A stretch of 64,000 nt of DNA from Xenorhabdus poinarii G6 (GTDB taxonomy: Bacteria; Pseudomonadota; Gammaproteobacteria; Enterobacterales; Enterobacteriaceae), in contig NZ_FO704551.1 of the NCBI RefSeq assembly GCF_000968175.1, positions 868,001-932,000 of the forward strand, given 5' to 3'. Every line of letters begins with the position of its first letter. Position 1 is the first letter of the stretch. The notes under the pieces are model-generated. The model was not told where the DNA came from. It saw only the letters and a program-made list of their open reading frames with translations, and searched no databases. Below are positions 46,372 to 63,509 of the stretch, one piece after another. The translations under genes and the position numbers were made by a program.

Positions 46372-46391
46372 TCCCTGTGGGAGATTATCAC

Positions 46392-47245: not shown

Positions 47246-47382
47246 ATGCTGACACTGGCGTTACGGCTCGGTAAAACGCTGTCGGCGTTGCAGCGGGAGT
47301 TATCCGCCAGTGAACTGATGCTATGGATGGCGTATGACCGTGAAAATCCCCTCAGCGACCGGCGCGGGGACATTCAGGCGGC
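47246..47382 (+). pseudogene. Tail assembly gene T, 5' part, split by the island
   Basis: The N-terminal part of a DUF4035 / lambda T-type tail protein (MLTLALRLGKTLSALQRELS, ELMLWMAYDRENPLSDRRGD). The family normally goes on QAAQIASAV...; here the frame passes the CAGGCGGC core and runs into unrelated sequence. The missing end is at 63,372-63,509 in the same orientation and in the right frame. Confidence 0.95.
47375..47382 (+). repeat. Left attachment core of the island
   Basis: CAGGCGGC, codons for Q-A-A within T, repeated at 63372-63379. The context (ATT before it on the left, ATA on the right) allows one mismatch beyond the 8-bp identity. Confidence 0.85.
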
Positions 47383-47510
47383 TTATATAAACTTTATATC
47401 CAACGGGGTGCTATATGTACTTATGTTGTTATTAATAAATTGAAAAACAAAGTAATTTCATTTTTTCATGTTTTGGCGTTTTTTTCCCTGTTTTGGTTGT
47501 TGCAGTACTC

Positions 47511-47533
47511 TGCGTATTGCAATGTGTATTGCA
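47511..47533 (+). repeat. Left arm-type sites of the island
   Basis: TGCGTATTGCA (47511-47521) and TGTGTATTGCA (47523-47533), spaced 12 bp, just before the integrase gene. A matching pair lies at 63275-63297 near the other end. Probable integrase or AlpA binding sites. Confidence 0.7.
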
Positions 47534-47553
47534 AATTGAAGAAGAGATAATGA

Positions 47554-48783
47554 ATGGCAGTTAACAAACTCAACGATAAAAAACTCAAATCATTACAGGG
47601 TAAGCCTGTAGACAAGCAGCAAATCATTGCAGATGGTAACGGCTTGTCTATCAGACTTAGCAAGACAGGTGCGATTAGCTTTGTTTTTTTCTATCGTCTT
47701 CATGGAAGAGAAAGTGCGCCTATATGGCTAACACTGGGTAAGTACCCGGACCTAAGTTTAAAGGCAGCAAGGGAACAAAGGGATAAATGTCGGACATGGT
47801 TAGCCGAAGGGAAAGACCCCCGAATACAAATAAAGATAATAAAAGAAGATACGCTAAAACCAGTAACCGTAAAAGATGCGATAGAATATTGGATTAATAA
47901 CTACGCTATTAATAAAAGAAAAAGAGTAATTCAGTTAAGACAATCCTTTTGTAAACATATTTATCCGGAAATAGGCGACATCCCATTACATGAGTGCTCT
48001 TTGACCATGTGGATTGAATGCTTTGATAAAATTAAAAAGAATGCACCTGTTCTGGCTGGCAAACTTTTGGAGGTATCTCAACAGGCATTGAAATTTTGCC
48101 GAGTCAGAAAATATGCAATCAGTCATGAGATTGATGATTTAACAGTTGAGGATGTCGGTAAGAGACGCAATAAAAGAGATAGGGTGTTAACAAATGATGA
48201 ATTACGTGATTTATGGTTTTGGGTGAATAAAGAATATGATAATCACTTTATTTCGCATGAATATAGAATTATTTTAAGGATTTTAATTGTTTTTGGTTGC
48301 AGGATGTCAGAAATATTATTATCAACATGGGAAGAATGGGACTTAGTTAATAATATCTGGAGAGTACCGCCAGAGCATAGTAAAAATGGCAAGGAAATAA
48401 TTAGACCAATACCAAATGGCTTTAAAAATTGGTTAACTTTATTACACAAATCAACAAAAAATAGAAGTCATGTTATTGGAACTGAAATTAAACAGGTGAG
48501 AGCTAGCTCATGCATTGGAAAAATATGGAAAAGATTAAACCATAAAGAAAACTGGACAGCACACGATATGCGGAGAGTGCTTGCTACAAATCTAAGTGAT
48601 AACGGTTTTGAGCATAATGTGGTTGAACAGTTATTAGGTCACTCATTAAAAGGGGTAGCCGGAATATACAACCGAAGTAAATATATTGAACAAAAAAGAA
48701 ATGCCCTAAATTGGTGGGTGGATTACTTGGATTCATTGATTGAAAAAGAGGAAATAAAAAATGATACACATATTCACCCGTGA
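47554..48783 (+). CDS. Island tyrosine integrase (P4-like)
   Basis: 409 residues. DUF4102 arm-binding domain (IIADGNGLSIRLSKTGAISF, LTLGKYPDLSLKAAREQRDK) and a catalytic core with Arg (IVFGCRMSEILLSTW), His-x-x-Arg (TAHDMRRVLATNLSDNG), His (LLGHSLKG) and Tyr (VAGIYNRSKYIEQ). AT-rich relative to the surrounding tail genes. It starts 170 bp from the left core and overlaps the first alpA-like gene. Its target is a protein-coding phage gene, not a tRNA. Confidence 0.95.
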   Translation: MAVNKLNDKKLKSLQGKPVDKQQIIADGNGLSIRLSKTGAISFVFFYRLHGRESAPIWLTLGKYPDLSLKAAREQRDKCRTWLAEGKDPRIQIKIIKEDTLKPVTVKDAIEYWINNYAINKRKRVIQLRQSFCKHIYPEIGDIPLHECSLTMWIECFDKIKKNAPVLAGKLLEVSQQALKFCRVRKYAISHEIDDLTVEDVGKRRNKRDRVLTNDELRDLWFWVNKEYDNHFISHEYRIILRILIVFGCRMSEILLSTWEEWDLVNNIWRVPPEHSKNGKEIIRPIPNGFKNWLTLLHKSTKNRSHVIGTEIKQVRASSCIGKIWKRLNHKENWTAHDMRRVLATNLSDNGFEHNVVEQLLGHSLKGVAGIYNRSKYIEQKRNALNWWVDYLDSLIEKEEIKNDTHIHP

Positions 48784-48985
48784 AGAGCTGGAAGGTTTAG
48801 ATGGCATCGATCGATTAATCAGAGAAGAAGAATGTGAGTGGTTAACGTCATTGACTCGGCAACATAGAAAACGCCTTGAAAAAAAAGGGATGTTTCCACG
48901 GAAAATCGTTATTGGCCCACAAAAAAAGGTCTATCGATTATCTGAAATTCAGGCATGGATAAAAGGTACTTGGAAGTCTGAATAA
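48761..48985 (+). CDS. AlpA-like regulator/excisionase 1
   Basis: 74 residues with a short winged HTH (CEWLTSLTRQHRKRLEKKGM, IGPQKKVYRLSEIQAWIKG). GAGGAAAT precedes the ATG; overlaps the integrase end. In PICIs AlpA-type proteins activate or direct excision. A terminator follows. Confidence 0.82.
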   Translation: MIHIFTREELEGLDGIDRLIREEECEWLTSLTRQHRKRLEKKGMFPRKIVIGPQKKVYRLSEIQAWIKGTWKSE

Positions 48986-49012
48986 TATTAAGGTCTTATA
49001 ATTAATCCCTTT

Positions 49013-49032
49013 CCCCGCTCGCGGGGTTTTTT
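49013..49032 (+). terminator. Terminator after integrase-alpA
   Basis: CCCCGC-TC-GCGGGG followed by six T, closing the integrase operon. Confidence 0.9.
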
Positions 49033-49052
49033 ATTTTGGAGAATATAAAAAT

Positions 49053-49334
49053 ATGGCAATGAAATTTACTTCACCGACAGCACAAGAACGCCAATCAATT
49101 TTAAATGAATACGGTGAAAAATATGATCGCAGAATCAGGGAAAAAGAATGCGGGCACCTTTCTAGTTTATCGCGTTCTCGTCGCTGGGTATTAGAGGAGG
49201 AAGGCAAATTCCCGAAGCGCGTTCCGTTGGGGCGTAATTCTGTTTCATGGCTTTTAAGCGATGTTCTATGGTGGGTACGCAACCCGCCAACAGTAGAGAA
49301 CGTGAATAACCCATACAGCCGAAAATCAAATTAA
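49053..49334 (+). CDS. AlpA-like regulator 2
   Basis: 93 residues, clearly a paralogue of the protein at 48761: DRRIREKECGHLSSLSRSRR, EEGKFPKRVPLGRNSVSWLL and SDVLWWVRN align with it. An N-terminal extension of ~20 residues. Starts a second transcription unit after the terminator. Confidence 0.8.
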   Translation: MAMKFTSPTAQERQSILNEYGEKYDRRIREKECGHLSSLSRSRRWVLEEEGKFPKRVPLGRNSVSWLLSDVLWWVRNPPTVENVNNPYSRKSN

Positions 49335-49352
49335 TTAAGACAGGGTAAAACT

Positions 49353-50285
49353 ATGACATCGAAAAATATGACCTTAATCGGTCAGGGACTCGCTCACTCT
49401 GAAAATAGAATGAATGATATTTCAATTATCCGTAAAGCGGTTATTTCAGGTGACTGGTCATCGATTAACAAAGGTATTTGTACACTCACCGATCTGGGCT
49501 TACGTCATAACGGTCAGGGGTTAGTTTGGCTAAATTCTGGCGTGTCGGTACATGAGGCAGAGTGTGATACAGGGCTGACAGGAAAGGATAAGCAATCTTA
49601 TGAATATCATTCAGAGGTGCGCACAGTCAACCAATTGAAAAGCAATGATTATTATGGTTTTGTCCAGCTAAAGGATATTGATAGCTACGCCCTGAATATC
49701 ATTGCTTCAATCAGTTCTGAATATCACACCCGTAAAAATGGTGTGCCTTTAGCGACGTTCGCGTTACTGATTGACCAGACTCAGCGGAAACAGGCCGTAG
49801 ATAACTGGGTTTTATACCGCAACCCAAAACAGCCAGACAAGTACACCATTCTCAATAAGCAGCACCATCATGAATTGGCGAAATGCTATCAGGCTAAAGG
49901 CTGGAAATGTGAGCCGTTGGAATATCTGAGCAGGTTAATTCGTAATGATGCTGAGTTCAGCAGGCTTATGCGTCGATTGGGTTATATCAAGGTTCGTACC
50001 CGTCAAATTACAGGGAAAATAAATGATGTCTGGGTTTATAGGAATAATGAAAAAGGCATCAGAGAGGTGCGCACAAAAGAAATAAGTAAAATCAATAGGT
50101 TTACTCCTTTTGTCCAGTATGCAAAACGACCAGTCAGAACATTTGAGCGCATTGCTGTAGATGGTCAGTGGCTCTATGTCTATGCCGATCACATTCGCTT
50201 TCTGACGAAAAAACGCCACCGTGTCGAGGGCACTCGGGTTCAGGGTTATACGGCTCAGGGCATAGAACTGCGAGAGGTGGTGTGA
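49353..50285 (+). CDS. Hypothetical island protein
   Basis: 310 residues, not recognised. Basic C-terminal half with a possible winged-helix part (LEYLSRLIRNDAEFSRLMRR, LGYIKVRTRQITGKINDVWV). It follows the second alpA-like gene by 18 bases and is probably cotranscribed. A DNA-binding role is possible. Confidence 0.65.
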   Translation: MTSKNMTLIGQGLAHSENRMNDISIIRKAVISGDWSSINKGICTLTDLGLRHNGQGLVWLNSGVSVHEAECDTGLTGKDKQSYEYHSEVRTVNQLKSNDYYGFVQLKDIDSYALNIIASISSEYHTRKNGVPLATFALLIDQTQRKQAVDNWVLYRNPKQPDKYTILNKQHHHELAKCYQAKGWKCEPLEYLSRLIRNDAEFSRLMRRLGYIKVRTRQITGKINDVWVYRNNEKGIREVRTKEISKINRFTPFVQYAKRPVRTFERIAVDGQWLYVYADHIRFLTKKRHRVEGTRVQGYTAQGIELREVV

Positions 50286-50952
50286 TGGTTGTTATTAACT
50301 ATAGGGATCCCTTGAGTTTAAGGAGTCCTAAAAATCCCCTTTGCTCAATAAAGGGTATTACCGACCAAGTGAATGATTCCTTACTGGCTGGCTTCGTGGT
50401 CACTGAATCCATGACCTCGACAAAGCATTTTGCTCAGTACCATTCAACCCAATTTATGGCTCAGTCATCGGCGGAAAATTTCGCCGATGGGGATACGAAT
50501 ATTTTCGGACACCTTAGTAACTCATTGATTTCTTCGCTGACCGTCAATCTGATCATCGAAAATATCAGCATGCAAAACCCAATATCCGATTATCGGACTT
50601 TGTGCGTAACTATTAGTTACTCACAAAATTTGCAGTCATCATTTAGTGGAGCGCAAAAAGAAAAGGATAGCACGGCGAATGCTACCCTTTGGCGTAAAGC
50701 ACATTTGCTTTACTTTGAATTACAAGAAATTAAGAGGCTACCCACAAATTGTGGGTTGGTTAGTAACCGAGCTGATTGTAACTCATCTTTTGAAGGTATT
50801 GGGATTTCCTCAATACCCTATATCTTCCCATCCGCGGCAACCATGGAGATTTCCACCACAGTTGATTTGAACTCAGTGAATAACTTTCACTTGGTTGGTT
50901 ACTGCTTAACTCATAACCTAGTTAACAATTTTTACTTGGTTGGTTATTGCTC
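50286..50952 (+). repeat. Hairpin array C of the island
   Basis: No credible gene. Inverted repeats in series: CATCGGCG/CGCCGATG (50466-50489), TCCGA/TCGGA (50585-50597), GTAAC/GTTAC (50606-50620), ACCCACAA/TTGTGGGT (50740-50756), GGTATTG/CAATACC (50795-50817), then two direct copies of ACTTGGTTGGTTAYTGCT (50889-50906, 50934-50951). 50795-50875 reappears inverted at 62034-62112. The long open frame across this region is not a gene. Confidence 0.75.
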
Positions 50953-51255
50953 AGATGATGCTTTGGCTTTGCGCTTCTGGAGTTCTTCCTGCGCGACATT
51001 GATAAGGAGTCTTATTTCTTCATTGGCTTTTGTGCCTATTTCCTCGATACGCACAAGGGCATCAAGGGAGGAAAGTAGAGGATCTTTGCTATTACCCTCA
51101 TTTTGGCGGCGGGCTATTTCTCCACGCATTGCAGTAACAATAAATCCGGCATTACTTTCATTGTCTTGTTTTACTGCGTCCATTCCTTCCATTACATCGT
51201 GGGGCACACGAACGGTAGTCAACTGTGACTTTGCGTTTTTGTTTGGCGTTGGCAT
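50944..51255 (-). CDS. YlcI/YnfO-like ribbon-helix-helix repressor
   Basis: 103 residues: MPTPNKNAKSQLTTVRVPHD, AGFIVTAMRGEIARRQNEGN, then a helical tail. The N-terminal region fits the YlcI/YnfO family, RHH-type DNA binders of phages and satellites. Divergent from the Icd-like operon across a palindromic promoter, so it is the probable island master repressor. Confidence 0.8.
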   Translation of the reverse strand: MPTPNKNAKSQLTTVRVPHDVMEGMDAVKQDNESNAGFIVTAMRGEIARRQNEGNSKDPLLSSLDALVRIEEIGTKANEEIRLLINVAQEELQKRKAKASSEQ

Positions 51256-51276
51256 TAATGAAACTCCTTACAATTG

Positions 51277-51354
51277 GTGTGTTTCATTATACACGAAAAA
51301 GAAATACAAAAAAGTCTTGACGTGTGTTTCTTATGAAAATAAGATGAAACACAC
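51277..51354 (+). promoter_or_regulatory. Island promoter overlapped by a palindromic operator
   Basis: TTGACG (51317-51322), 17 bp, TAAGAT (51340-51345) is a near-consensus sigma-70 promoter pointing right. It lies inside the palindrome GTGTGTTTC (51322-51330) / GAAACACAC (51346-51354). A third GTGTGTTTC stands at 51277-51285 near the divergent repressor start. Repressor occlusion of the promoter is the simple reading. Confidence 0.78.
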
Positions 51355-51445
51355 CTTGAGCATCCAAGGTATACAAACAGTGAAGCCCAGCAGTGCACGA
51401 ACACTAACTGGGCCTCTAACCAACAACGTAAAGGAGTCTTACGCT

Positions 51446-51691
51446 ATGGCTATCCCACAGCATACCCAAACTCGCCTTAAATTTACATTCCTAATTGCAT
51501 CAGGCACTCAGCGGCTGGTGGATATTCACCCCATGCACCTTATCACTGTACTGGCGGATAACGAAGGTGAAGCCCGTCTACTGGCTGGCATTTCCTCACT
51601 GATATTTGTCTCTCGTCAAGCATGGGATATCGGTATCGATACACCTTTCAACGATGGTGGCATGTCTACCGTTCAGGGGGTGGCCTCATGA
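51446..51691 (+). CDS. Icd-like (host cell division inhibitor-like) protein
   Basis: 81 residues. LKFTFLIASGTQRLVDIHPM and the ITVLADNEGEARLLAGI segment match the Icd-like family of P4-like satellites. AAAGGAG precedes the ATG. Activity as a division inhibitor is inferred from the family name only. Confidence 0.75.
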   Translation: MAIPQHTQTRLKFTFLIASGTQRLVDIHPMHLITVLADNEGEARLLAGISSLIFVSRQAWDIGIDTPFNDGGMSTVQGVAS

Positions 51692-51942
51692 GCCAGCCTA
51701 TCACTATTCATCAAGCCGCTGAAAAAGCGCAGCAGCTCGAATTTATTAGTCAGCTTATTGAGTCATACCCTCATCAAATACAGGACAGTGAAATAGCGGT
51801 TATTTCTTCTCTGATGGCGAAGTTATCCGGTGATATTGCTGTATTTCTGATTGAAGTAATTGCGGGTGAGGAAGCTATTGATAACACTTCCAACTATAGA
51901 GATATATCTACCGTTCAGGGGGTGAGCCATGCGCAACCCTGA
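51688..51942 (+). CDS. Hypothetical island protein
   Basis: 84 residues from MSQPITIHQAAEKAQQLEFI, helical. It ends with STVQGVSHAQP, nearly the same as the end of the preceding protein (STVQGVAS), because a short DNA segment (CTACCGTTCAGGGGGTG) is repeated at both gene ends. ATGA overlap with both neighbours. Confidence 0.65.
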   Translation: MSQPITIHQAAEKAQQLEFISQLIESYPHQIQDSEIAVISSLMAKLSGDIAVFLIEVIAGEEAIDNTSNYRDISTVQGVSHAQP

Positions 51943-52099
51943 ACCCCATGATTATTACACCCATAAGAACGGGGAAACTGTCGAAGTACTGTCAGTCGCC
52001 TTTAACCGAGTGACGTTTGTCCGTGAAGGTTATATCACCCCGTGCATCATGCCAGTCAGCCGTTTCACTAAAGAATACACCTACGCAGGGAGAGCTTGA
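51929..52099 (+). CDS. DUF4222-like small protein
   Basis: 56 residues (PHDYYTHKNGETVEVLSVAF, then VTFVREGYITPCIMPVSRFT): the compact beta fold of DUF4222 phage proteins. Overlaps the previous gene by 14 bases. Confidence 0.65.
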   Translation: MRNPEPHDYYTHKNGETVEVLSVAFNRVTFVREGYITPCIMPVSRFTKEYTYAGRA

Positions 52100-52101
52100 T
52101 T

Positions 52102-52407
52102 ATGTCTGATATCTATAACCATTTAGTACGCAACAACTTTAGCGCCATGAGTACAGAAGAACTGAAAGATCTGCGCAAGCATTCAGATGGCGCACATAGC
52201 GCAGTGATGGCGGCCATGTCTGCAATGGGCGAACTGGCTTTCTGGTCTGCCGATAATGAAAACTATGACAATCGTCAGGCAAGGGAGGATTTACGCCGCG
52301 TGGGTGAAGCCCTGATGTACCTGCCCCGAATTGCCGAAGCGCTGAATGACACCGCTCAGCATGCGGATTTTGAAATTCATCACCGCGAGAGGTTCCCCAA
52401 ATGGTAA
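52102..52407 (+). CDS. Hypothetical island protein, paralogue of prophage gene 26834
   Basis: 101 residues from MSDIYNHLVRNNFSAMSTEE. Shares NN...MS, D-L-R-R and LPRIAEALND with the prophage protein at 26834-27154 and ends ADFEIHHRERFPKW. Immediately before the primase, so possibly a replication accessory. Confidence 0.65.
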   Translation: MSDIYNHLVRNNFSAMSTEELKDLRKHSDGAHSAVMAAMSAMGELAFWSADNENYDNRQAREDLRRVGEALMYLPRIAEALNDTAQHADFEIHHRERFPKW

Positions 52408-55109
52408 CGCAGATTGATATCAGGTCGGTGAAAACGGCAGCAAAAGATCAGTGGCATGGTGTGTTATCGGCCTGTGGTGTGAATGTTCCTGAAAAGGGTA
52501 AGCATGGTGCTTGCCCTATCTGCGGCGGTACTGACCGTTTTCACTTTATCGACGACCACGGGAACGGGGACTGGCATTGTCGCCAGTGCGATATTCCGAA
52601 TCATGGCGATGGCTTTGATTTACTGATGAGAGCCAGAGGGATAACGTTAATCGAAACAGTAAAAGCCGTTTCTGATGCGCTGGCGCTACCTCTGCCAGAA
52701 CCCAAGCCGGCCAGAAAGGAGGCTTCTAAATCAAAGGTTCAACCGATCACCGAGAAAGTGAATAAGCTGGTGGCTCAATCCACTGCCGGACAATCCGATT
52801 ATCTGACGAAAAAGGGGCTGCAATGCCCCGATCAGCGATTACTGAAAGACGGTACCTTGTTGCTGGTCATTCAGACACTGGACGGCACAATCACCGGTGC
52901 TCAAATCATCAAGCCGAATGGTGAAAAGCGCCTTGTCTCTGGTACGCAGAAAAAGGGGAGTTTTATCCCCTTATCGGCAATCCCCGAAACGCCGGACACG
53001 ATCATCATTACTGAGGGTTATGCCACCGCTTTAACCGTTAGCCAGTTGCATGAGGGGTTAGTACTGGCCGCGATTGATGAAGGTAATTTATCGACGGTTG
53101 CCGGGCTGGTCAGAGAGCGGTGGCCAGCCGTAAAAATCATTCTTGCAGCGGATAATGACTGGCATGAGAAAGGCGAACGGGACAACAACGGCAAGCCGAA
53201 GAAAAATGTCGGCAAGATAGCCGCAGAGAAGACAGCAAAAGCGATCAACGGTTGGGTAGCTATACCCCCGACAGAGCATAAAGCTGATTGGGACGATTAC
53301 CGACAGCAGCACGGCATTGAGGCAGCAAGGCAGGCATTCAGTGAAGGGGTGTATCCGGTGGGGGTGAAAAATATGTCAGCGTCAGTAGTCATTAATTTAG
53401 ATGAACGCCGGGAGAAAGAGCGTGATCCGTTAAAAGCCTTTATCGATGTGCGTAAGAACGGGATTTATTACGTTACGCCAAAGGTGGATAAAGAGAGTGG
53501 TGAAATTATCAACCATGAGCAATGGCTCAGTGATGCCATGCAAGTGGTCGGGCGCGGTCGTGATGATATCGAGTTTTATCTTATTATTCAGTGGAAAGAA
53601 AACGGTACAACTTATACCGAGGCAGTGAAGACAGGTGATATTGGTGATCGTGAAGGTTGGCGGCAACTGAAAGCGGCAGGGTTGAATATTACGAGCAAGC
53701 CCTCTTTGCGCAATATTTTATCAGACTGGTTGCAGCGTTGTGCTAAGAAGACTGATTGGCATATCACTCACTCAACAGGATGGCAGCATGGGGCTTACAT
53801 CTTCCCAACAGGCGAAGTGATTGGCAATCCAGAAAAGTCAGTTATTTTCTGTGGAAGAACGTCATCAATACGAGGCTATACCGTGGCGGGAACGCCGGAA
53901 AGCTGGCGCGATTCTGTAGCAAAATTAGCCAAAGGCAATCCCTTTATGATGCTGTCCATTGCCTCCGCACTAGCATCACCGGTTATCGGCTTGCTGCGTG
54001 ATGATGGTTTTGGTGTTCACTTCTACGATCAGAGCACCGCAGGGAAAACCACTGCGCAAAGTGTGGGATGTAGTGTTTTCGGTGAACCCTCCGCCATGCG
54101 TTTAACGTGGTTTGCGACCACATTAGGGCTGATTAACGAAGCTGCCGCCCACAATAATAACTTGTTACCCCTTGATGAAGTCGGACAAGGTTCATCGGTT
54201 AAAGATGTGGCGAATGCGTCTTATGCCCTGTTCAATGGCAAGGGAAAGCTACAGGGGGCGAGAAACGGCGGGAACCGTGACATTCTTCAGTTTAAAACGA
54301 TTGCTATCAGTACAGGAGAGATTGATCTTGATACCTTTGTCAGAAGTGAAGGTAAGCGTATGAAAGCAGGACAGCTTGTCCGGTTGCTGAATATTCCATT
54401 CAGTAGCCCAACTGTCTTACATGGTTATCAGGATGCCAGAGAACACGCTAAGGCAATCGAAAAAGCGATTACTGACAATCACGGGGCTATTGGTCGGGTA
54501 TGGTGTGAATATCTGACTCAGAACCAAAAAGCGACCAGAGCGACCATTGAGGAAACCAAAATCCGTTGGAATGGATTGATCCCCAAAGGCGCTGGGGCGC
54601 AACTTCCCCGTGTAGCAGAACGGTTCGCCATCTTAGAGGGTGCGCTCATTGCAGCAACACACCTCACCGGGTGGACGGAACAAGAAAGCCGGGACGCAAT
54701 TCAGCACTGTTTCAATGCGTGGGTGGCTGAATTTGGTACTGCCAATAAAGAACACCAGCAGATACGGGAACAAACAGAGGCATTTTTAGACCGCTTCGGA
54801 TTAAATCGGTATGCGCCAGAGCCGTACACCTATGATCATGCCACGATTTCTAACCTTGCAGGCTACCGAAAAGATACCAGCGATATTCCCAACAATGGCG
54901 GTCTTATCCATTTTTACACTTTCCCGGATGTGTTCGAGACTGAGGTATCAGAAGGCTTTGAACCGAAGATGTTTGCACGAGTTTTAGCAGAATCAGGGAT
55001 GTTGAAAAAGGCCGCCAATGGTGGTTTTAAGGTGCAAGGCATGAAACACAACGGCTCACCCCGTAAGTATTATGTGGTGATGTATTCAGCTGATGAGATG
55101 GAAGAATAA
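52401..55109 (+). CDS. Satellite primase-helicase (zinc finger, Toprim, DUF927)
   Basis: 902 residues. Zinc ribbon CPICGGTDRFHFIDD...WHCRQC (~38-75), Toprim (IIITEGYATALTVSQLHEGL; ILAADNDWHEKGE, ~205-260) and a DUF927 helicase domain (~350-650) with Walker A FYDQSTAGKTTAQSVG and a Walker B-like NNLLPLDEVGQG. A replication initiator of the P4-alpha class; the iteron-rich origin follows at once. Supports autonomous island replication. Confidence 0.95.
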   Translation: MVTQIDIRSVKTAAKDQWHGVLSACGVNVPEKGKHGACPICGGTDRFHFIDDHGNGDWHCRQCDIPNHGDGFDLLMRARGITLIETVKAVSDALALPLPEPKPARKEASKSKVQPITEKVNKLVAQSTAGQSDYLTKKGLQCPDQRLLKDGTLLLVIQTLDGTITGAQIIKPNGEKRLVSGTQKKGSFIPLSAIPETPDTIIITEGYATALTVSQLHEGLVLAAIDEGNLSTVAGLVRERWPAVKIILAADNDWHEKGERDNNGKPKKNVGKIAAEKTAKAINGWVAIPPTEHKADWDDYRQQHGIEAARQAFSEGVYPVGVKNMSASVVINLDERREKERDPLKAFIDVRKNGIYYVTPKVDKESGEIINHEQWLSDAMQVVGRGRDDIEFYLIIQWKENGTTYTEAVKTGDIGDREGWRQLKAAGLNITSKPSLRNILSDWLQRCAKKTDWHITHSTGWQHGAYIFPTGEVIGNPEKSVIFCGRTSSIRGYTVAGTPESWRDSVAKLAKGNPFMMLSIASALASPVIGLLRDDGFGVHFYDQSTAGKTTAQSVGCSVFGEPSAMRLTWFATTLGLINEAAAHNNNLLPLDEVGQGSSVKDVANASYALFNGKGKLQGARNGGNRDILQFKTIAISTGEIDLDTFVRSEGKRMKAGQLVRLLNIPFSSPTVLHGYQDAREHAKAIEKAITDNHGAIGRVWCEYLTQNQKATRATIEETKIRWNGLIPKGAGAQLPRVAERFAILEGALIAATHLTGWTEQESRDAIQHCFNAWVAEFGTANKEHQQIREQTEAFLDRFGLNRYAPEPYTYDHATISNLAGYRKDTSDIPNNGGLIHFYTFPDVFETEVSEGFEPKMFARVLAESGMLKKAANGGFKVQGMKHNGSPRKYYVVMYSADEMEE

Positions 55110-55124
55110 ATTCTCTATACGCGT

Positions 55125-55515: not shown

Positions 55516-55550
55516 CACTATATATACAAAAAATAGGAGAAGGTGTCATT

Positions 55551-55736
55551 ATGACTATTCTAAAGACAGAACATTTTAAAGCAGTTGATGATATTGAATA
55601 TTTCATGAAGACAGACGGCTTAAGCCGCGATGAGGCTGTGGATCTCTTGAAATTACTTGAATTACGGAAGATAAATAATAACTTGGAATACCTCGCTTCC
55701 TGTGTTGAACGAGCGCCTTGGAACTTTGAAGAGTAA
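55551..55736 (+). CDS. Small hypothetical protein after the origin
   Basis: 61 residues from MTILKTEHFKAVDDIEYFMK; AGGAGAAGG precedes the ATG. Helical, acidic. A terminator follows, so it may be the last gene of the replication unit. Not recognised. Confidence 0.65.
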   Translation: MTILKTEHFKAVDDIEYFMKTDGLSRDEAVDLLKLLELRKINNNLEYLASCVERAPWNFEE

Positions 55737-55775
55737 ATTTTTGTAAATATTCCGTTCTCATGTTTCCGCAAGTTT

Positions 55776-55800
55776 AGACCTCCTATTTTGAGGTCTTTTT
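55776..55800 (+). terminator. Terminator before the capsid module
   Basis: AGACCTC-CTATTTT-GAGGTCT followed by five T; separates replication from morphogenesis genes. Confidence 0.88.
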
Positions 55801-55970
55801 ATTATATTTTTCATGGATATATTAAGAAATGGCACTCAGACGTGAGCCGCCAAAAGGCCGTTTAGTTAAGCTGCGAGAAGTAGCCTGCGAGACGCAGAAA
55901 AAGATTATTCGGCCTGCCCCTTTCAGCGCTGGTTTCACGTCTTAACATTCATTGTTACGGAAACCATGTC

Positions 55971-57122
55971 ATGAAAAAGCTACTCGAATTACGCCAGCAA
56001 AAGGCCACTCTTACCGAACAAATGCGCACCCTGCTCACCAAAGCCGAAGGTGAAAAGCGTTCCCTGACCGAAGATGAAGCGAAACAGTTTGACGAACTGC
56101 GCAGCCAGTCCGACACGCTGAATACGGAAATCGCCCGTTATGAGGCACTGTCTGATGAAGAACGCAGTCAGGTCAAGAATCAGCCTGCCAGTGAAACACT
56201 CAGCAATGACGAACTGCGCCACTATATTCTGACCGGCGAAATCCGTACCCTGTCTACAGCTGTTTCCTCAGAGGGCGGCTATACCGTTATCCCGGAACTG
56301 AATAAACAAATCATGCAGCAATTGACTGATGAGTCGGTCATGCGCCGGATTTGTACCATTAAGACCACCCGCAGCAACGAATATAAGCAGCTTGTTTCGG
56401 TTGGTGGCGCAGCAGTGGCACACGGCGAAGAAGGTAAGGCACGCGGTGAGACTGGCACGCCGAAGATGGAAGAAGTGAGCATCAAGCTATTTCCCATCTA
56501 CGCCTATCCTAAAACCACCCAAGAGATTATCGATTTTAGCGATGTCGATATCTTAGGCTGGCTGACGTCAGAAATTGCCGATACCTTCGTCGATACCGAA
56601 GAAACCGACCTTGTGAGCGGTGACGGCAGCAAAAAAGCGAAAGGCTTTCTGTCTTATCCCCGTGATACCCAAGCCGACAAAGTACGCACATTTGGCACAT
56701 TACAGAAGCTGGACGCTGCCACGCTTTCCGCCGATAGCCTGATTGACCTGAAATTCTTACTCAAAAATAAATACCGTAAAAATGCGGTGTGGGTGATGAA
56801 CTCCACGACCGCCGCTCAGGTGCAAAAGCTGAAAAACGGCAATGGCGATTATATCTGGCGTGAGCGTTTACAGGCGGGTGATCCGGATATGCTGCTGGGC
56901 TTGCCTGTCCACTACCTCGAATTTATGCCAGAAGGTGTGATCGGTCTGGGTGACTTCAAGCGCGGCTATTTCATCGTTGACCATGAGACAGGCACCCGTA
57001 CCCGCCCTGACAATATTACCGAACCGGGCTTCTATAAGGTACATACCGATAAATATCTGGGCGGCGGTCTGGTGGACTCCAACGCCATCAAGGTGCTGGA
57101 AGTGAAAGCAGCCAGTAAATAA
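55971..57122 (+). CDS. Island major capsid protein (HK97 fold)
   Basis: 383 residues. An N-terminal coiled-coil delta-like region (~70 aa) and the HK97 fold (EGGYTVIPELNKQIMQQLTD, LFPIYAYPKTTQEIIDFSDV, VIGLGDFKRGYFIVDHETGT). Belongs to the HK97 class, like the prophage capsid, but shares little visible sequence with it. So it is a second, independent head system rather than a duplicate. Confidence 0.95.
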   Translation: MKKLLELRQQKATLTEQMRTLLTKAEGEKRSLTEDEAKQFDELRSQSDTLNTEIARYEALSDEERSQVKNQPASETLSNDELRHYILTGEIRTLSTAVSSEGGYTVIPELNKQIMQQLTDESVMRRICTIKTTRSNEYKQLVSVGGAAVAHGEEGKARGETGTPKMEEVSIKLFPIYAYPKTTQEIIDFSDVDILGWLTSEIADTFVDTEETDLVSGDGSKKAKGFLSYPRDTQADKVRTFGTLQKLDAATLSADSLIDLKFLLKNKYRKNAVWVMNSTTAAQVQKLKNGNGDYIWRERLQAGDPDMLLGLPVHYLEFMPEGVIGLGDFKRGYFIVDHETGTRTRPDNITEPGFYKVHTDKYLGGGLVDSNAIKVLEVKAASK

Positions 57123-57125
57123 GCG

Positions 57126-57150
57126 AGAGGGGCGAAAAGCCCCTTTTCAG
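57126..57150 (+). terminator. Weak terminator/attenuator between capsid and protease
   Basis: GGGGC-GAAA-AGCCCC followed by four T, in the 44-base gap. It could raise capsid mRNA relative to downstream genes. Confidence 0.5.
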
Positions 57151-57166
57151 TCTTGGAGTCCATAAG

Positions 57167-57715
57167 ATGAATAACGATTTTGAAATCCGCACCGCCTCAC
57201 TGTCTGCCAGTGATCAAAAACTGACCGGCTATGTGATTAAGTGGAACAGCCGATCCCAAATCCTATGGGATGAATTTGTTGAACAATTTGCCCCGAATGC
57301 CTTTCGTGCCAGCTTGACGGCAAAGACTGATGTTCGGGCATTGTATGAACATGATCATATGAACCTGTTAGGCCGCACCACCTCCGGCACATTGCAACTT
57401 AGCGAAGATACTACCGGATTACGCTTCGAACTAACCCCGCCTGATACGCAATTAGGGCGCGATGTGTTAACGCTGGTTGAACGGGGTGATATACAAGGCA
57501 TGTCCTTTGGTTTTCGTGCAATTAAAGATCAATGGGATACAGGGCAAACACCCTATGTCAGAACCGTCTTAGAGGCCGAATTACGGGAAATCACCATCAC
57601 CAGCTTACTCGCCTATCCTGAAAGTGGGGTAGAGATTGCCAGGCGTTCACTGAATGCCGCTAAGCCCCGTGATGCCGATTTGCGTCATTACTGGCTGCAA
57701 CTGTCCGAGGTGTAA
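57167..57715 (+). CDS. Island HK97-type prohead protease
   Basis: 182 residues. LTGYVIKWNSRSQILWDEFV, ALYEHDHMNLLGRTTSGTLQ (His), ERGDIQGMSFGFRAI (Ser), ITITSLLAYPESGVEIARRS. Peptidase U35 family; matures the island capsid protein. Confidence 0.94.
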   Translation: MNNDFEIRTASLSASDQKLTGYVIKWNSRSQILWDEFVEQFAPNAFRASLTAKTDVRALYEHDHMNLLGRTTSGTLQLSEDTTGLRFELTPPDTQLGRDVLTLVERGDIQGMSFGFRAIKDQWDTGQTPYVRTVLEAELREITITSLLAYPESGVEIARRSLNAAKPRDADLRHYWLQLSEV

Positions 57716-57717
57716 CT

Positions 57718-58935
57718 ATGTGGCCGTTTAAGCGTAAAGCCCCTGAAACCCGCAGTATGAGCATTGATGAGTTTCTTTCTCTGGCAGGCATCTCTAACAC
57801 CAAATCGGGTGAACATGTTTCCCCATCTACGGCAGAGGGCTTACCGGCGGTGATGAATGCCGTTACCGTCATTAGCGAAGCGGTGGCCTCTATGCCTTGC
57901 TACCTCTATCGGGTTGCGCACCAGAACGGTAAAGAATCCCGCGAATGGTTGAGCGATCACCCGGTGGATTACTTGCTGAATGAATGCCCGAATGATTGTC
58001 AGACGCCGTATCAATTCAAGCGAACGCTGATGCGTCATTGTCTACTGAATGGCAATGCATATGCGGTGATTGTCTGGGGTCGGGATGGTCAACCGCAATC
58101 CCTGCACCCTTACCCGCCATCGGCAGTTGTCCCGCAGCGGCTATCCGATCACCGGTTCGCCTACACTCTCACTGAGCCTTATAGCGGCAAGGTCAAAACT
58201 TATCTACAGGAAGAAATTCTGCATTTGCGCTATGCCACCGAAGATGGTTTTCTTGGGCGCTCACCGGTCACGGTTTGCCGTGAAACTCTGGGTTTGGGGC
58301 TGGCACAACAACGCCACGGTGCCAGCATCATGAAAGAGGGCATGATGGCGGCAGGGGTGATTAAATCCGCTGAATGGTTAGATGGCATCAAAGGCAATAA
58401 GGCACTGGAAGCCCTCGAACGTTACAAAGGTGCGCGTAATGCCGGGAAAACACCGATCCTTGAAGGTGGGATGGAATACCAGCAGTTAGGCATGAGTAAC
58501 CAAGATGCGGAGTGGCTGGCTTCCCGCCGTTTTACCATTGACGATATCGCCCGTATGTTCAACGTCAGCCCGATCTTTCTGCAAGAGTATTCGAACAGCA
58601 CCTACAGTAACTTTAGCGAAGCGTCCCGCGCCTTTTTGACGATCACGATGCGCCCGTGGCTTGCCAACTTTGAACAACAAATCAAGGCGGCCTTGCTGAT
58701 GGCTTCACCGAAACGAGGTATTCGTTATCAGGTGGAATTTGACACTGCCGATTTGTTGCGAGCTAACCCGAAAGAACGTTTCCAGAGCTACGAGACGGCG
58801 ATTAAATCCGGCGTCATGTCCCCGAATGAAGCCCGTGAACGCGAGGGATTATCGCCCCGTGAGGGCGGTGATGAATTTAGTCAGGCATGGAAGCAAGAGG
58901 TCAGTATTAAAAAAACTGAGGTGAAAGATGATTAA
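57718..58935 (+). CDS. Island portal protein (HK97 family)
   Basis: 405 residues. AVMNAVTVISEAVASMPCYL, FTIDDIARMFNVSPIFLQEY, NSTYSNFSEASRAFLTITMR. Two bases after the protease stop and overlapping the connector gene: compact morphogenesis operon. Confidence 0.95.
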   Translation: MWPFKRKAPETRSMSIDEFLSLAGISNTKSGEHVSPSTAEGLPAVMNAVTVISEAVASMPCYLYRVAHQNGKESREWLSDHPVDYLLNECPNDCQTPYQFKRTLMRHCLLNGNAYAVIVWGRDGQPQSLHPYPPSAVVPQRLSDHRFAYTLTEPYSGKVKTYLQEEILHLRYATEDGFLGRSPVTVCRETLGLGLAQQRHGASIMKEGMMAAGVIKSAEWLDGIKGNKALEALERYKGARNAGKTPILEGGMEYQQLGMSNQDAEWLASRRFTIDDIARMFNVSPIFLQEYSNSTYSNFSEASRAFLTITMRPWLANFEQQIKAALLMASPKRGIRYQVEFDTADLLRANPKERFQSYETAIKSGVMSPNEAREREGLSPREGGDEFSQAWKQEVSIKKTEVKDD

Positions 58936-59230
58936 CCCTCTCATAACATTGGATGAAATCAAGCAGCATTGCCGGATAGATGAAAACGATACGCTTGAGG
59001 ATGCACTCCTTAAGGGCTATGCCGACGCTGCGTTAGAAGTCTGCCAGCAACATATTGGCAAACGCTTCGATAAGGGTCTGGCCTTTACCCCGGCAATGAA
59101 AGTCGGCTGCTTACTTTATATCGGTTTACTGTATGAGAACCGGGCAATGGCGGCAGATAAGGAACTGAAAGAAATCCCGTTCACCATTAAATCATTGTGG
59201 TCTGTCTATCGTGATGTAGGAGTGTACTAA
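58928..59230 (+). CDS. Island head-tail connector (gp6-like)
   Basis: 100 residues: LITLDEIKQHCRIDENDTLE, KVGCLLYIGLLYENRAMAAD. The gp6 family adaptor beneath the portal, the interface where a helper tail would dock. Confidence 0.9.
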   Translation: MINPLITLDEIKQHCRIDENDTLEDALLKGYADAALEVCQQHIGKRFDKGLAFTPAMKVGCLLYIGLLYENRAMAADKELKEIPFTIKSLWSVYRDVGVY

Positions 59231-59667
59231 TGCCGTGGCAACCGTTGAAACGTTGTACCTATCCGGGATGCAAACAGCGGGTCAAGTCGGGTCGGTGTGA
59301 TGAGCACAGACGAGAGATCAGCCGACAACAGGATAAGCAACGAGGCTCACGCCGTGAACGTGGCTATACCCCTGCATGGGATAAATACCGTTTGCAATTC
59401 CTTAAGGCTAACCCGTTATGTGTGCATTGCTTAAAGCAGAACAGCTACACACCCGCAACTATTGTTGATCACATTATCCCGATTAATGGCGGTAGTGATG
59501 TGCTGTTCTGGCCTGCCTCCAATCATCAAGCCCTATGCCATCGCTGCCATAACACGAAGACGTTTACTCAAGACCCGATAACCAAGCAGAAGCGCAAGCG
59601 CGGTGAGTATCGTGAGCAGGAAGCAGAAGCAACAAGGCGCAATGACTGGATGTACCAGCATGAATAA
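59230..59667 (+). CDS. Island HNH endonuclease
   Basis: 145 residues. Zinc-binding Cys pairs (CTYPGCKQRVKSGRCDEH), GYTPAWDKYRLQFLKANPLC and the HNH core IVDHIIPINGGSDVLF followed by ALCHRCHNTKT. Helps terminase cut cos. Confidence 0.93.
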   Translation: MPWQPLKRCTYPGCKQRVKSGRCDEHRREISRQQDKQRGSRRERGYTPAWDKYRLQFLKANPLCVHCLKQNSYTPATIVDHIIPINGGSDVLFWPASNHQALCHRCHNTKTFTQDPITKQKRKRGEYREQEAEATRRNDWMYQHE

Positions 59668-59848
59668 AACAGAGACCGAACAACTCGTTAAAGGGCTATT
59701 GAAGCACAGTGAACCCTATCGACCAGAGAAGCAGATTGCGCCTGAGAAGCCCACAGTGAAGCGTAAGACACAACGTGATAAGGAGCTAAGGGTATGTTTC
59801 AGGGGTCGGCAGAGAGGCTTACAAGGAGGGTGGGGGCATCAAAAATGA
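59660..59848 (+). CDS. Small possible ORF between HNH and TerS
   Basis: 62 residues from MNKTETEQLVKGLLKHSEPY, overlapping the HNH stop; no clear ribosome-binding site. Its last part runs into the cos-like stretch, so it may not be real. Confidence 0.35.
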   Translation: MNKTETEQLVKGLLKHSEPYRPEKQIAPEKPTVKRKTQRDKELRVCFRGRQRGLQGGWGHQK

Positions 59849-59892
59849 CAAATGCCCTGCCTCATGGCACCGCCGCCCCCTCAAATTTTTAC
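59830..59892 (+). other. Candidate island cos region
   Basis: Between HNH and TerS: GGGTGGGGGCAT and ACCGCCGCC (59869-59877), then TCAAATTTTTA. The prophage has ACCGCCGCC...TCAATTTTTA at the same place (39,352-39,375). Confidence 0.45.
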
Positions 59893-59940
59893 GCACGGCA
59901 CTTTTTTCAATAGCAGTAACTTCATAGGAATCAGAATATT

Positions 59941-60300
59941 ATGGCAAGAGCACCCAAACCCCCGGTTTATTTGAACGACATCGCCGCCGAGCAATGGAAA
60001 TCAAAAGCCAAAATTCTCAATGAACGGGAAGATCTCAGCCCGGCGGACTGGAATAACTTAGAACTGTATTGCGTCAACTATGCGATTTACCGTAAAGCCG
60101 TTGAAGACATTGAAGTGCGCGGGTTCGCGGTGGAAGGTTCACGCGGCGCAGCGACCAGCAATCCGTCACTGAAAGCGAAAGCGGATGCCGAAAAAATCAT
60201 GATAAAAATGTCGTCGTTGCTCGGTTTTGATCCCGTATCCCGGCGCCGGAATCCGATAGAAAGTGACGAACCTGATGATTTAGACGTACTGATAGCCTGA
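59941..60300 (+). CDS. Island terminase small subunit (P27 family)
   Basis: 119 residues. NDIAAEQWKSKAKILNERED, LELYCVNYAIYRKAVEDIEV, SSLLGFDPVSRRR. P27-type TerS, different in sequence from the prophage TerS, so the island recognises its own DNA. Confidence 0.93.
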   Translation: MARAPKPPVYLNDIAAEQWKSKAKILNEREDLSPADWNNLELYCVNYAIYRKAVEDIEVRGFAVEGSRGAATSNPSLKAKADAEKIMIKMSSLLGFDPVSRRRNPIESDEPDDLDVLIA

Positions 60301-60311
60301 GTCATACCACG

Positions 60312-61973
60312 ATGAACGCATGGGAACAGTACGCTTTTGCTATCGAAAACGGCACCATTCCGGCCTGTCAGCGGGTAAAACAGGCCGTGAAACGCTATTA
60401 TAGCGACCTGCATAACCCGCTTTATACGTTCGATAGCGAAGTTGTCGAGCGTTTTATCGGCTTTTCCCGTCTCTGCCCGCACGTCAAAGGCCACTTACGT
60501 GGTCAACCCATCATGCTTGAACCGTGGCAGCAGTTTGCCTTTGCTAACCTGTTCGGCTTCAAAGTCAAAGCGACCGGACGCCGAAAATACCGCAGCGCGT
60601 ATATTCAGGTGCCGCGAAAAAATGCCAAATCCACGGTAGCAGCAATACTGGCGAACTGGTTCTTGGTGATGGAACAAGGCCAGCAGGATATTTACACCGC
60701 TGCCGTGAGCCGGGATCAGGCGCGGATTGTCTTTGATGATGCCCGCCAGATGTGCCTGTTATCCAAGCCCCTGAAAAAACGGGTCGCTATCCAGCAACAT
60801 AAAGTTACCTACCCAAAGAGCAACAGCCTGTTAAAGCCACTGGCTGCCAAAGCCGCCACGATTGAGGGTACAAATCCTAGTCTGGCCATTGTCGATGAGT
60901 ACCATTTACACCCTGATAACGCCGTGTACTCTGCGCTTGAATTGGGGATGGGTGCCCGTCCCGAAGGACTCCTGTTCGCCATTACCACCGCAGGCAGTAA
61001 CGTGATATCGGCCTGTAAACAGCACTATGATTATTGTTGTCAGATACTGGATGGCGAAGAACAGAACGAATCGTTATTCGCCCTGATTTACGAACTGGAC
61101 GATGAGAGCGAGATTGATGATGAAGCACTTTGGATCAAGGCCAATCCCAATCTGGATGTCTCGGTAGACAGTGCCGCCCTGCATGACACTCTCCAGAAAG
61201 CGCGCGGCATTCCCTCACAATGGACAGAGATGTTAACCAAACGCTTTAATATCTGGTGCCAGGGCGAAACCCCGTGGATGGGTGAAGGCGCATGGAAAGC
61301 CTGCCAGCAAGATTATGATGAAAATGACCTCAAAGGACTGGAGTGCTACGCCGGACTGGATTTGTCTTCAACAGGCGATATCACCAGTATCTGTTACACC
61401 TTCCCGGTGGATAACGAACTGTTATTACTGACTCGCCATTATCTACCCGAAGCGCAGTTACAAAACCCCGCTAATAAAAATCGGGCGGTGTATCGCCAAT
61501 GGGTACAATCGGGCTGGATACGCACTACCGCAGGCGACTGCATCGATTACGACCGTATCCGCGATGATATTCTTAAAGACAGCCAGCAGTTTGATATCAA
61601 GCTGGTCGGTTTTGATACATGGAACGCCACGCATCTACGCACTCAGCTACAGGGCGCAGGGCTGGATGTGGAGCCGTTCCCGCAAACTTATATGCGCTTT
61701 AGCCCGGTTGCCAAGTCTGCCGAAGTGTTCGTGAATCGCAAGGTCATTCGACACAACGGCGATCCGGTACTCGCATGGGCAATGTCCAATGTGGTGATGG
61801 AAACGGACGCGAATGCCAATATCAAACCGAATAAGAAGAAATCCGCGAATAAAATCGACCCGGCAATTGCGTTTCTGATGAGTTTTGGCACATGGCAAGC
61901 AGAACATGAAGACTTTGCATTCAGTCTCAGTGATGAACAGAGGCAACGACTGGCTGGCTTTGACGGGATTTAG
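60312..61973 (+). CDS. Island terminase large subunit
   Basis: 553 residues. Walker A-like IQVPRKNAKSTVAAILANWF, Walker B/DE SLAIVDEYHLHPDN, motif III ITTAGSN, nuclease domain (CYAGLDLSSTGDITSICYTF; KIDPAIAFLMSFGTWQAEHE). Terminase_1 family, diverged from the prophage enzyme. Last gene of the packaging operon. Confidence 0.96.
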   Translation: MNAWEQYAFAIENGTIPACQRVKQAVKRYYSDLHNPLYTFDSEVVERFIGFSRLCPHVKGHLRGQPIMLEPWQQFAFANLFGFKVKATGRRKYRSAYIQVPRKNAKSTVAAILANWFLVMEQGQQDIYTAAVSRDQARIVFDDARQMCLLSKPLKKRVAIQQHKVTYPKSNSLLKPLAAKAATIEGTNPSLAIVDEYHLHPDNAVYSALELGMGARPEGLLFAITTAGSNVISACKQHYDYCCQILDGEEQNESLFALIYELDDESEIDDEALWIKANPNLDVSVDSAALHDTLQKARGIPSQWTEMLTKRFNIWCQGETPWMGEGAWKACQQDYDENDLKGLECYAGLDLSSTGDITSICYTFPVDNELLLLTRHYLPEAQLQNPANKNRAVYRQWVQSGWIRTTAGDCIDYDRIRDDILKDSQQFDIKLVGFDTWNATHLRTQLQGAGLDVEPFPQTYMRFSPVAKSAEVFVNRKVIRHNGDPVLAWAMSNVVMETDANANIKPNKKKSANKIDPAIAFLMSFGTWQAEHEDFAFSLSDEQRQRLAGFDGI

Positions 61974-62408
61974 CTAAGTCATTGATTTTAGTTATTTCTG
62001 TCACTGTGCAGGAGATTAATGAAATCAAGGGGTTAGCTAACTATGGTGGAAATCACCATGGTTGCCGCAAGGTGTGATATCCCATCTTGGGTATAGAGGA
62101 AATCTCAATACCTTTTGCTTTTGTACATGCGGGATTTTCCCGTATGTCACTTAGGTGATAACTAATTGATATTTAATCAGAAGAAAATCTGGCGTTTGGT
62201 CATAATGTAACTAACCCTCTTAAAGAGGGTTAGTTTGTGCCGACGAAATGCGTCGAGACCTCTTTATAGGATTGGGACGTTAAACTTACTGACCTCTTTT
62301 TGTTATCAGCAAACATATCTATGTGACAAAAGTCTCTTTAATCAAGATCAATAATAACGAACAAGGTAATGCGTATGTACAATAACCTATTATTTCATTA
62401 TATAGGTT
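61974..62408 (-). repeat. Hairpin array D of the island (inverted relative of C)
   Basis: No gene. The minus strand of 62034-62112 repeats array C 50795-50875 (GGTATTG, GATTTCCTC, GCGGCAACCATGG, GATTTCCACCA). Hairpins: ATGGTG/CACCAT (62043-62059), GGTAT/ATACC (62090-62112), GCGGGA-TTT-TCCCG (~62,129-62,142), ACTAACCCTCTT/AAGAGGGTTAGT (62210-62234), CGACG/CGTCG (~62,241-62,255). The right side must also carry the exonuclease promoter. Confidence 0.75.
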
Positions 62409-62414
62409 ATGGGT

Positions 62415-63185
62415 ATGAGAAATCGTCAACAAGCGCAGTTAATTGCAGAGCAGCTACTAAAAGAAGATATTATTATATTAGATACAGAGACAACAGGATT
62501 AAAGAACGATGATGAAATTATTGAAATAAGTATTATAAACGCTGAGGGTGATATTTTACTGAATACACTTATTAAGCCACAAAAAAAGATCCCCCTTGAT
62601 GCAATCAAAATACACGGAATCACGAATGAAGATGTTCAACATGAACCTATGTGGAGTGATATCTATAAAAAATACAGAGAAATAGTTAAAGGAAAAACAG
62701 TCATTATTTATAACAAATCCTATGACACAAAAATAATTAGACAAACATGCAAAAAATACGAATTACCTACACCAAGAATAAAGTCAGAATGTGCAATGTT
62801 GTTATATGCAGAATATTATGGGGAAATAAATAAAAGAACAGGTGATTACAAATGGCATAAACTCACCGACGCAATTCATGATAACAAATTAGAAGTTTCT
62901 GGTGAGGCACATAGAGCACTTACAGATGCTCGAATGACATTGGAATTAATGAAACGCATGGCCTATGGAGATCGCGATACCCCCATCCCTTTATTACGCT
63001 CAATATACCCACCTATTAATCCTTATTATGAAAAATATAAACGTGAAAAAAAGGAGGAAGAACGACGCTTACATGAACGTAAAGAACAATTGAAAAAAGA
63101 AGAAGAAGCTAGAGAGTTTTCAAAGTACGTTAGTGTAGTACTTATTTTTTTATTTTTACTGTTTGTAATTTGGCTTTTTGCTTGA
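62415..63185 (+). CDS. Membrane-anchored DnaQ-like 3'-5' exonuclease
   Basis: 256 residues from the second ATG (AGG 8 bases upstream). DEDDh exonuclease motifs: IIILDTETTGLKNDDEIIEI (Exo I), IIYNKSYDTKIIRQT (Exo II), HRALTDARMTLELM (Exo III). Then a charged coiled coil (~195-230) and a C-terminal transmembrane segment (VSVVLIFLFLLFVIWLF). A tail-anchored exonuclease is unusual. AT-rich, at the island's right end, the place of variable cargo; a superinfection-exclusion or defence role is possible. Confidence 0.88.
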   Translation: MRNRQQAQLIAEQLLKEDIIILDTETTGLKNDDEIIEISIINAEGDILLNTLIKPQKKIPLDAIKIHGITNEDVQHEPMWSDIYKKYREIVKGKTVIIYNKSYDTKIIRQTCKKYELPTPRIKSECAMLLYAEYYGEINKRTGDYKWHKLTDAIHDNKLEVSGEAHRALTDARMTLELMKRMAYGDRDTPIPLLRSIYPPINPYYEKYKREKKEEERRLHERKEQLKKEEEAREFSKYVSVVLIFLFLLFVIWLFA

Positions 63186-63274
63186 AATCACATAAGGTCA
63201 GAGCTGCTATCGTACTGACCTGTCCACTTCCGACAAATGACATCATTTCACTAAGTTCCTCCTCATAAAGCTAT

Positions 63275-63297
63275 TGTGTATTGCACTGTGTATTGCT
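63275..63297 (+). repeat. Right arm-type sites of the island
   Basis: TGTGTATTGCA (63275-63285) and TGTGTATTGCT (63287-63297), the same 12-bp spacing and orientation as the pair at the left end. Confidence 0.7.
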
Positions 63298-63371
63298 TCA
63301 AGCAAATAAATCACAAGAAAAATTCATTAAAATCATTATAAATCAGTGAAGTATATAAAACTTGCAATATA

Positions 63372-63379
63372 CAGGCGGC
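63372..63379 (+). repeat. Right attachment core of the island
   Basis: CAGGCGGC, identical to 47375-47382; prophage coding sequence of T resumes here in the correct frame. Confidence 0.85.
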
Positions 63380-63509
63380 ACAAATCGCGTCAGCGGTTTA
63401 TCAGTCGCAGGGGGCGAAAATCGGCCTGAACGACGCGCTGCTTAAATGGGGCAACACCAACGAAGAAACGGCGGACGACCTCGAAAATTTCTTTACCAAT
63501 CTTGCATAG
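63372..63509 (+). pseudogene. Tail assembly gene T, 3' part
   Basis: Reads QAAQIASAVYQSQGAKIGLN and on to a TAG at 63507-63509, the normal end of DUF4035 / T-type tail proteins. Joined at the core to 47246-47374 it gives a 92-codon reading counted from 47234, without a stop. Confidence 0.95.

Follow-up and report, generated by a model that had tools for sequence, protein, structure and literature searches.

A putative helper-embedded satellite with its own head genes interrupts tail gene T of a Xenorhabdus poinarii prophage

The window analyzed here is a stretch of 64,000 nucleotides from Xenorhabdus poinarii G6 (contig NZ_FO704551.1, positions 868,001 to 932,000 of the forward strand), in which gene T (PF06223) of a lambda-like prophage is interrupted by an island of 15,997 bp, measured from core to core. 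The reading considered probable is that the island is a helper-embedded phage-inducible chromosomal island (HE-PICI) with capsid and packaging genes of its own, with late excision likely restoring T, and with satellite heads predicted to be completed by the head-closure protein and tails of the surrounding prophage.

The split of T was confirmed at the following positions.

47216..47222, + strand: slippery heptamer (A AAA AAG) for a -1 shift, close to the end of gene G
47246..47382, + strand: helper gene T, 5′ part (PF06223, phrog_337)
47375..47382, + strand: attL core CAGGCGGC
63372..63379, + strand: attR core CAGGCGGC
63372..63509, + strand: helper gene T, 3′ part including the stop codon

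Positions 47246–47380 match positions 1–26 of the 73 in the PF06223 Phage_tail_T profile. From its ATG at 47246, the left half runs for 46 codons (...GDIQAA) and then passes into foreign sequence, with a stop at 47441–47443, about 60 bp beyond the core; the right copy of CAGGCGGC reopens the T frame, which ends at 63507–63509. Only 8 bp are common to both ends, so that attP carries no replacement sequence for T. The T frame is already open from 47216, exactly at the heptamer, with G as the frameshift partner, and T is probably made as a -1 frameshift product, by analogy with lambda, in which such a shift yields gpGT (PMC4493119). The octamer by itself carries little weight, because it occurs five times in the window against 1.82 expected.

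In 30 Xenorhabdus genomes, T starts were found at 15 places in 10 genomes; 12 of the 15 genes cross the site unbroken (...GDIQAA followed directly by QIAS...), two—those of the window and of Xenorhabdus kozodoii—are split there, and one diverges earlier. Among 394 genomes of the order, T starts were detected at the same threshold in nine (10 places), the window's being the sole short open frame, at 75 amino acids, and the others spanning 100–132. The split is accepted as real because the right copy reopens the T frame, because uninterrupted alleles exist, and because the same octamer lies at both junctions in X. kozodoii. An original prediction, made from the letters of the window, had T split at CAGGCGGC and resuming in frame 16 kb on after the same 8 bp, as the coordinates and frames confirm, and had staked its case on intact T genes in relatives without the island, which the Xenorhabdus genomes supplied. 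Its central claim also stands: the attachment site is a late gene of the likely helper prophage, taken by a satellite that carries head genes.

The island contains the following genes.

47554..48783, + strand: satellite tyrosine integrase, placed by tree in the HE-PICI clade (PF00589, PF13356)
48761..48985, + strand: AlpA-like gene 1 (PF05930)
49053..49334, + strand: AlpA-like gene 2 (PF05930)
49353..50285, + strand: gene without family, in place of the Bro zone
52401..55109, + strand: primase (DUF927, Toprim, Zn-ribbon)
55971..57122, + strand: satellite major capsid protein, HK97 type (PF05065, TIGR01554)
57167..57715, + strand: satellite prohead protease, S78 (PF04586)
57718..58935, + strand: satellite portal (PF04860)
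58928..59230, + strand: satellite head-tail adaptor/connector, Ad1 (phrog_40, PF05135, TIGR01560)
59230..59667, + strand: HNH endonuclease (PF01844)
59941..60300, + strand: satellite TerS (PF05119)
60312..61973, + strand: satellite TerL (PF03354, PF20441)
62409..63185, + strand: DnaQ-like exonuclease adjoining attR (PF00929, phrog_192)

All island genes lie on the + strand, co-oriented with helper G, T, and the tape measure gene. The gene content first proposed (integrase, AlpA-like genes, primase, HK97 head genes, HNH, TerS, and TerL) was borne out by the family matches, as was the lack of tail and lysis genes: none was seen among the open reading frames and family matches, some small frames having no family. 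The gene at 49353–50285, at the place between alpA and primase where HE-PICIs carry Bro-zone proteins or an immunity RNA (PMC10111431), gave no Pfam, PHROGs, or NCBIfam match and no Rfam match at gathering score. The exonuclease gene has a G+C content of 0.33. The head and packaging proteins of the satellite share 24–38% identity with those of the enclosing prophage, and the satellite genes are not a recent copy of the helper's because identity is this low. Capsid-forming PICIs (cf-PICIs) were reportedly described by Alqurainy et al. in 2023. As far as second-hand accounts go, their gene set is that of the island—HK97 capsid, protease, portal, adaptor, HNH, TerS, and TerL, without tail genes—whereas their site is chromosomal and that of the island lies inside a helper late gene.

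In a 2023 study, 491 HE-PICIs were reported in prophage late genes, and the effect was termed “regulated gene integrity” (Tommasini, Mageeney and Williams 2023, PMC10111431). The HE-PICIs of that study share with the island a late-gene site in a prophage, the same direction, a short core, a doubled TGTATTGC motif at the same spacing, the order int–alpA–primase–late genes, and a related integrase. Here, T is split inside a prophage bounded by ssrA repeats, and the arm motif was found on both sides.

47511..47532, + strand: doubled arm motif, left, starting 132 bp from the core centre
63275..63296, + strand: doubled arm motif, right, with 79 bp between the end of its 23-bp form and the core centre

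The published distances to the attP centre are 132 ± 2 bp for the motif downstream of it and 81 ± 2 bp for the upstream one (PMC10111431); those given here run from motif edge to core centre, the published text not stating which edge is meant. The doubled TGTATTGC motif matched twice in the window and not at all in 100 shuffles. An integrase tree of 28 rows, midpoint-rooted and built here independently of the published tree and reference set, separates the 22 rows of arm-motif elements from six fis-type rows (100/99). The window's integrase falls in a group of 11 rows (100/99) that also holds TerL-site elements and X. kozodoii; it is 52% identical to that of a capsid-E-site element found here. 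Judged from sequence, the island is an HE-PICI with a capsid-forming-type head module, and not a standard cf-PICI, because no closure gene lies between portal and connector. The main text places most HE-PICI sites (97%) in A, B, C, and E, and also names V (PMC10111431); 14 sites are given overall, and T may be one of them, given that the Figure 3 legend of that paper comments on T.

The missing head-closure gene sets the embedded elements apart from most related head modules. In the window, the connector gene starts 8 bp before the portal gene ends, and no closure gene separates them. A survey covered 58 sequences; 41 show both portal and connector, and the other 17, with only one of these in view or neither, were left out of the count (L217 and L237, among the 17, do show closure beside the portal). 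A closure gene between portal and connector was found in none of three embedded elements (six copies: the window, X. kozodoii, and four of one element in genome G014, one of these four at a TerL gene), as against 30 of 33 modules without an arm motif in view. Closure is also present in vB_KppS-Ant, and is listed for a cf-PICI-type element in PMC13230959, unlike in the island. The embedded elements are inferred to use the helper closure gene at 45273–45596, and the original prediction that the satellite needs only tails has to be widened, the island lacking a head-closure gene as well.

A second T-site case was found in X. kozodoii (genome G018), in which the left junction lies on contig C79 and the right on C81, with the same core octamer at both and at the same codon, and with right-hand arm positions the same as those in the window; the two contigs are taken to represent one island. 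Its left side shows int, two alpA genes, and the primase start; its right side shows the portal end, adaptor, HNH, TerS, TerL, and the same exonuclease, capsid and protease being outside the view, and the cargo matches that of the window as far as it is assembled. The head genes of the enclosing X. kozodoii prophage differ, reaching 29–34% identity with the helper or satellite of the window and 50% for the connector; from closure onward the two prophages are alike, and identity to the window helper is 86% for closure and the gp10-like protein, 82% for the tail terminator-like protein, 87% for the tail tube, 70% for G, 87% for the first half of T, and 92% for the tape measure start. The integrases of the two T-site islands are not sisters: that of the window groups with the one from Xenorhabdus hominickii (96/99). 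A test that used 14 of the 28 integrase rows, and was run after the first tree was known, rejected a single clade for both (p-AU 0.0013). The DnaQ-like exonuclease (window 62409–63185; L211:4989–5756) was seen only in these two islands among the 58 sequences, in not all of which the island end is visible. Because both T-site islands share this exonuclease beside attR, they may have one origin, with later exchange of the integrase.

The enclosing prophage, the likely helper, has the following features in the window.

21798..21827: 30-bp repeat of the ssrA (tmRNA) 3′ end, marking where the composite prophage begins on the left
21933..23114, - strand: integrase of the enclosing prophage (phrog_1)
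39437..44878, + strand: helper TerS, TerL, portal, protease, and capsid
45273..45596, + strand: helper head-closure protein, Hc1 (phrog_25)
46377..46856, + strand: helper tail tube protein (PF16460/PF08813)
46857..47237, + strand: helper gene G, tail assembly chaperone (PF06222)
63518..64000, + strand: start of the helper tape measure gene, which runs past the window (PF20155)

The partner ssrA repeat lies past the window end (G000:C1:945989–946018), and the whole composite, which these 30-bp repeats bound, has the tmRNA gene as its target. Between them lie genes for an integrase, a repressor-like protein, a primase, a Q-like antiterminator, a holin, an endolysin-like protein, a KilA-N-like regulator and HNH (by eye), terminase, HK97 head, closure, tail, tape measure, and a DNA invertase. 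The composite measures 56,191 bp and, by subtraction, 40,194 bp without the island. The invertase gene (phrog_125; L009:13801–14376) lies near the right end of the prophage, and a second tyrosine integrase (window 20005–21285, - strand), perhaps of another island beside ssrA, lies just beyond its left end. A tRNA as target of the island was also considered and set aside, ARAGORN finding none in the window; no RNA family reached gathering score at window positions 20000–64000.

Target sites of related elements were collected from IMG/VR with the exact motif (82 stretches, 80 of them listed) and a looser one (at least 120, 80 listed, partly the same), giving 125 loci, several from one contig. 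An integrase match (E <= 1e-30) was found at 73 of them, six with too little upstream sequence. The remaining 67, assigned by pattern or by eye, comprise TerL (16), portal (17), ClpP-type protease (18), and capsid E (9) sites, one X. hominickii fragment, six loci without an assigned site, and none in T. The X. hominickii target fragment (60 amino acids) had no Pfam or PHROGs match and resembles a portal start by eye only, and a fragment in L266 that resembles a tail tube start by eye had no PHROGs match. At three TerL-site loci (L095, L120, and L151) the capsid gene is 64–77% identical to the window's; L143, of similar reach, shows none. Eight portal- or protease-site loci (L097, L102, L106, L142, L148, L150, L124, and L141), each with at least 8 kb downstream, and four loci without an assigned site (L136, L138, L140, and L157) gave no match when compared with capsid, protease, and portal of the island, a search that other kinds of head gene would escape. 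Predicted HE-PICIs with this head module extend beyond Xenorhabdus, and TerL-site ones may well figure already among those published in 2023.

A close relative (genome G014; L068–L072 on contigs C1, C2, C4, and C5) carries a capsid-forming HE-PICI in several near-identical copies, one of them at a TerL gene and some damaged. Four copies (two in L069 and one each in L071 and L072) are preceded by the apparent right end of another copy, not by a phage gene. This arrangement would fit tandem copies or circles, and indirectly suggests that relatives of the island recombine at the predicted core. Head modules of this kind abound in the genus, a related capsid protein (E <= 1e-100) being present in 24 of the 30 Xenorhabdus genomes. 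Two further modules of capsid-forming type lie in the same genome as the window: one with a fis-type integrase and head closure (L214, G000:C1:1083000–1102999), and one with no portal or connector detected between protease and HNH (L215, G000:C1:1930000–1949999).

A mechanism can be proposed from these observations and from published cases. T is interrupted, and the island and the late genes run in the same direction. Upon induction, the 56-kb composite would leave ssrA and replicate, carrying the island passively, by analogy with 11capE of Escherichia coli, in which excision occurs late, after replication of the composite, and from which particles could not be isolated (PMC10111431). Late transcription would then run through attL into int and alpA and lead to excision, after which T would be uninterrupted as in relatives. 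gpGT would be made only after excision, and tails would thus form late; in phage TP901-1, loss of gpT leaves capsids without tails (PMC4493119). The satellite TerS and TerL would fill satellite heads, to which the helper would supply closure and tail, as suggested by the presence of an adaptor and the lack of a closure gene in the satellite. At about 1.4 times the helper length, the composite would be too long for a helper head, so that helper virions would also need excision. In the published capsid-gene case, an HE-PICI was excised after mitomycin C, and isolation of particles failed (PMC10111431).

Several points weigh against this mechanism. Excision, circle, and particles of the island are predictions, the helper role of the prophage is deduced from its position, and the prophage could be dead. 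Should excision fail, a capsid-forming satellite would pay for having broken the tail gene on which it depends. Promoter matches were no more frequent than in shuffles, giving no promoter or terminator support for read-through into int. T appears to be a rare target, no T half having been found among the 125 IMG/VR loci listed. Regarding closure, the gene is also missing in three of the 33 modules without an arm motif (L241, L243, and L246), and BG5, which has an HE-type integrase and no recognized phage gene at its site, keeps it. Comparison of 0 of 3 with 30 of 33 gives a hypergeometric p of 0.0028, with relatedness ignored; the pattern was first noticed on part of the counted data, and 40 regions added later brought only modules without an arm motif and no new embedded element.

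The break in T may instead have no regulatory role, the gain consisting in riding a replicating, late-transcribed prophage, with T as one of several usable conserved late-gene sequences. Related integrases do occur in TerL, portal, ClpP-type protease, and capsid E genes, and the window's own integrase group includes TerL, T, and, by eye only, portal sites; all identified sites, however, are late genes without replacement sequence, whose integrity needs excision whatever the reason for the choice, and this explanation is regarded as rather unlikely. That prophage and satellite are both defective fossils, with T split permanently, is less probable still: excision in this strain is a prediction, and the module at L215 of the same genome shows protease beside HNH without a detected portal or connector, but the satellite integrase, primase, head, and terminase frames are open, as are the helper integrase, primase, Q-like, holin, head, and tail frames, and each end retains its core and arm motif. 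An assembly artefact or a chance match of the octamer, which does occur five times in the window, is hardly credible, given that the genome is a single contig, that the published arm motif stands at both ends, and that the same junctions recur in a second species; chance was dismissed on the frames, the uninterrupted alleles, and that species.

Contrary to what the original prediction had supposed, such a switch was not new as an idea, since the same principle was published in 2023 for other late genes as regulated gene integrity (PMC10111431). The main text of that paper mentions neither capsid-forming HE-PICIs nor loss of head closure, and documents the capture of clusters comprising up to 17 late genes. 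Added here are a tail-gene site for an HE-PICI whose head module is capsid-forming, a second case that matches as far as it is assembled, in a prophage with other head genes and a similar closure-and-tail cassette, and the lack of a closure gene of their own in embedded elements. This combination of module, tail-gene site, and missing closure was not found among the matches listed from the open-licence literature, without supplements, which is not proof of absence. vB_KppS-Ant (LR881103.1, L079; 16.5 kb, source given as induced prophage) has the same head and packaging genes in circularly the same order as the island, and an integrase 49.5% identical to the window's that nevertheless groups with the fis-type ones; it differs in having no arm motif, in the presence of closure, and in one gene annotated as tape measure. 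Alignment of the island with its ends gave no conclusive cos site. PQ569648.1 (L080), a 106-kb Klebsiella phage record, contains a stretch with a related integrase and capsid gene, and both are public phage records resembling or containing capsid-forming satellites.

A more far-reaching version is put forward tentatively, and with doubt. Sitting in T and lacking closure, the island may be a tail-locked satellite tied to the enclosing prophage, whose excision would switch on the tail factory and whose closure would come only from the cassette of that prophage, so that satellite and helper tail type would move and evolve together whatever the helper head genes. Capsid-forming satellites take tails from phages in trans. 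If the reading proposed here is true, the island would follow the opposite strategy, with one fixed tail donor under satellite control. What a satellite must bring to the head-tail joint, and what it may borrow there, becomes testable by comparing embedded elements without closure with the other modules, most of which have it.

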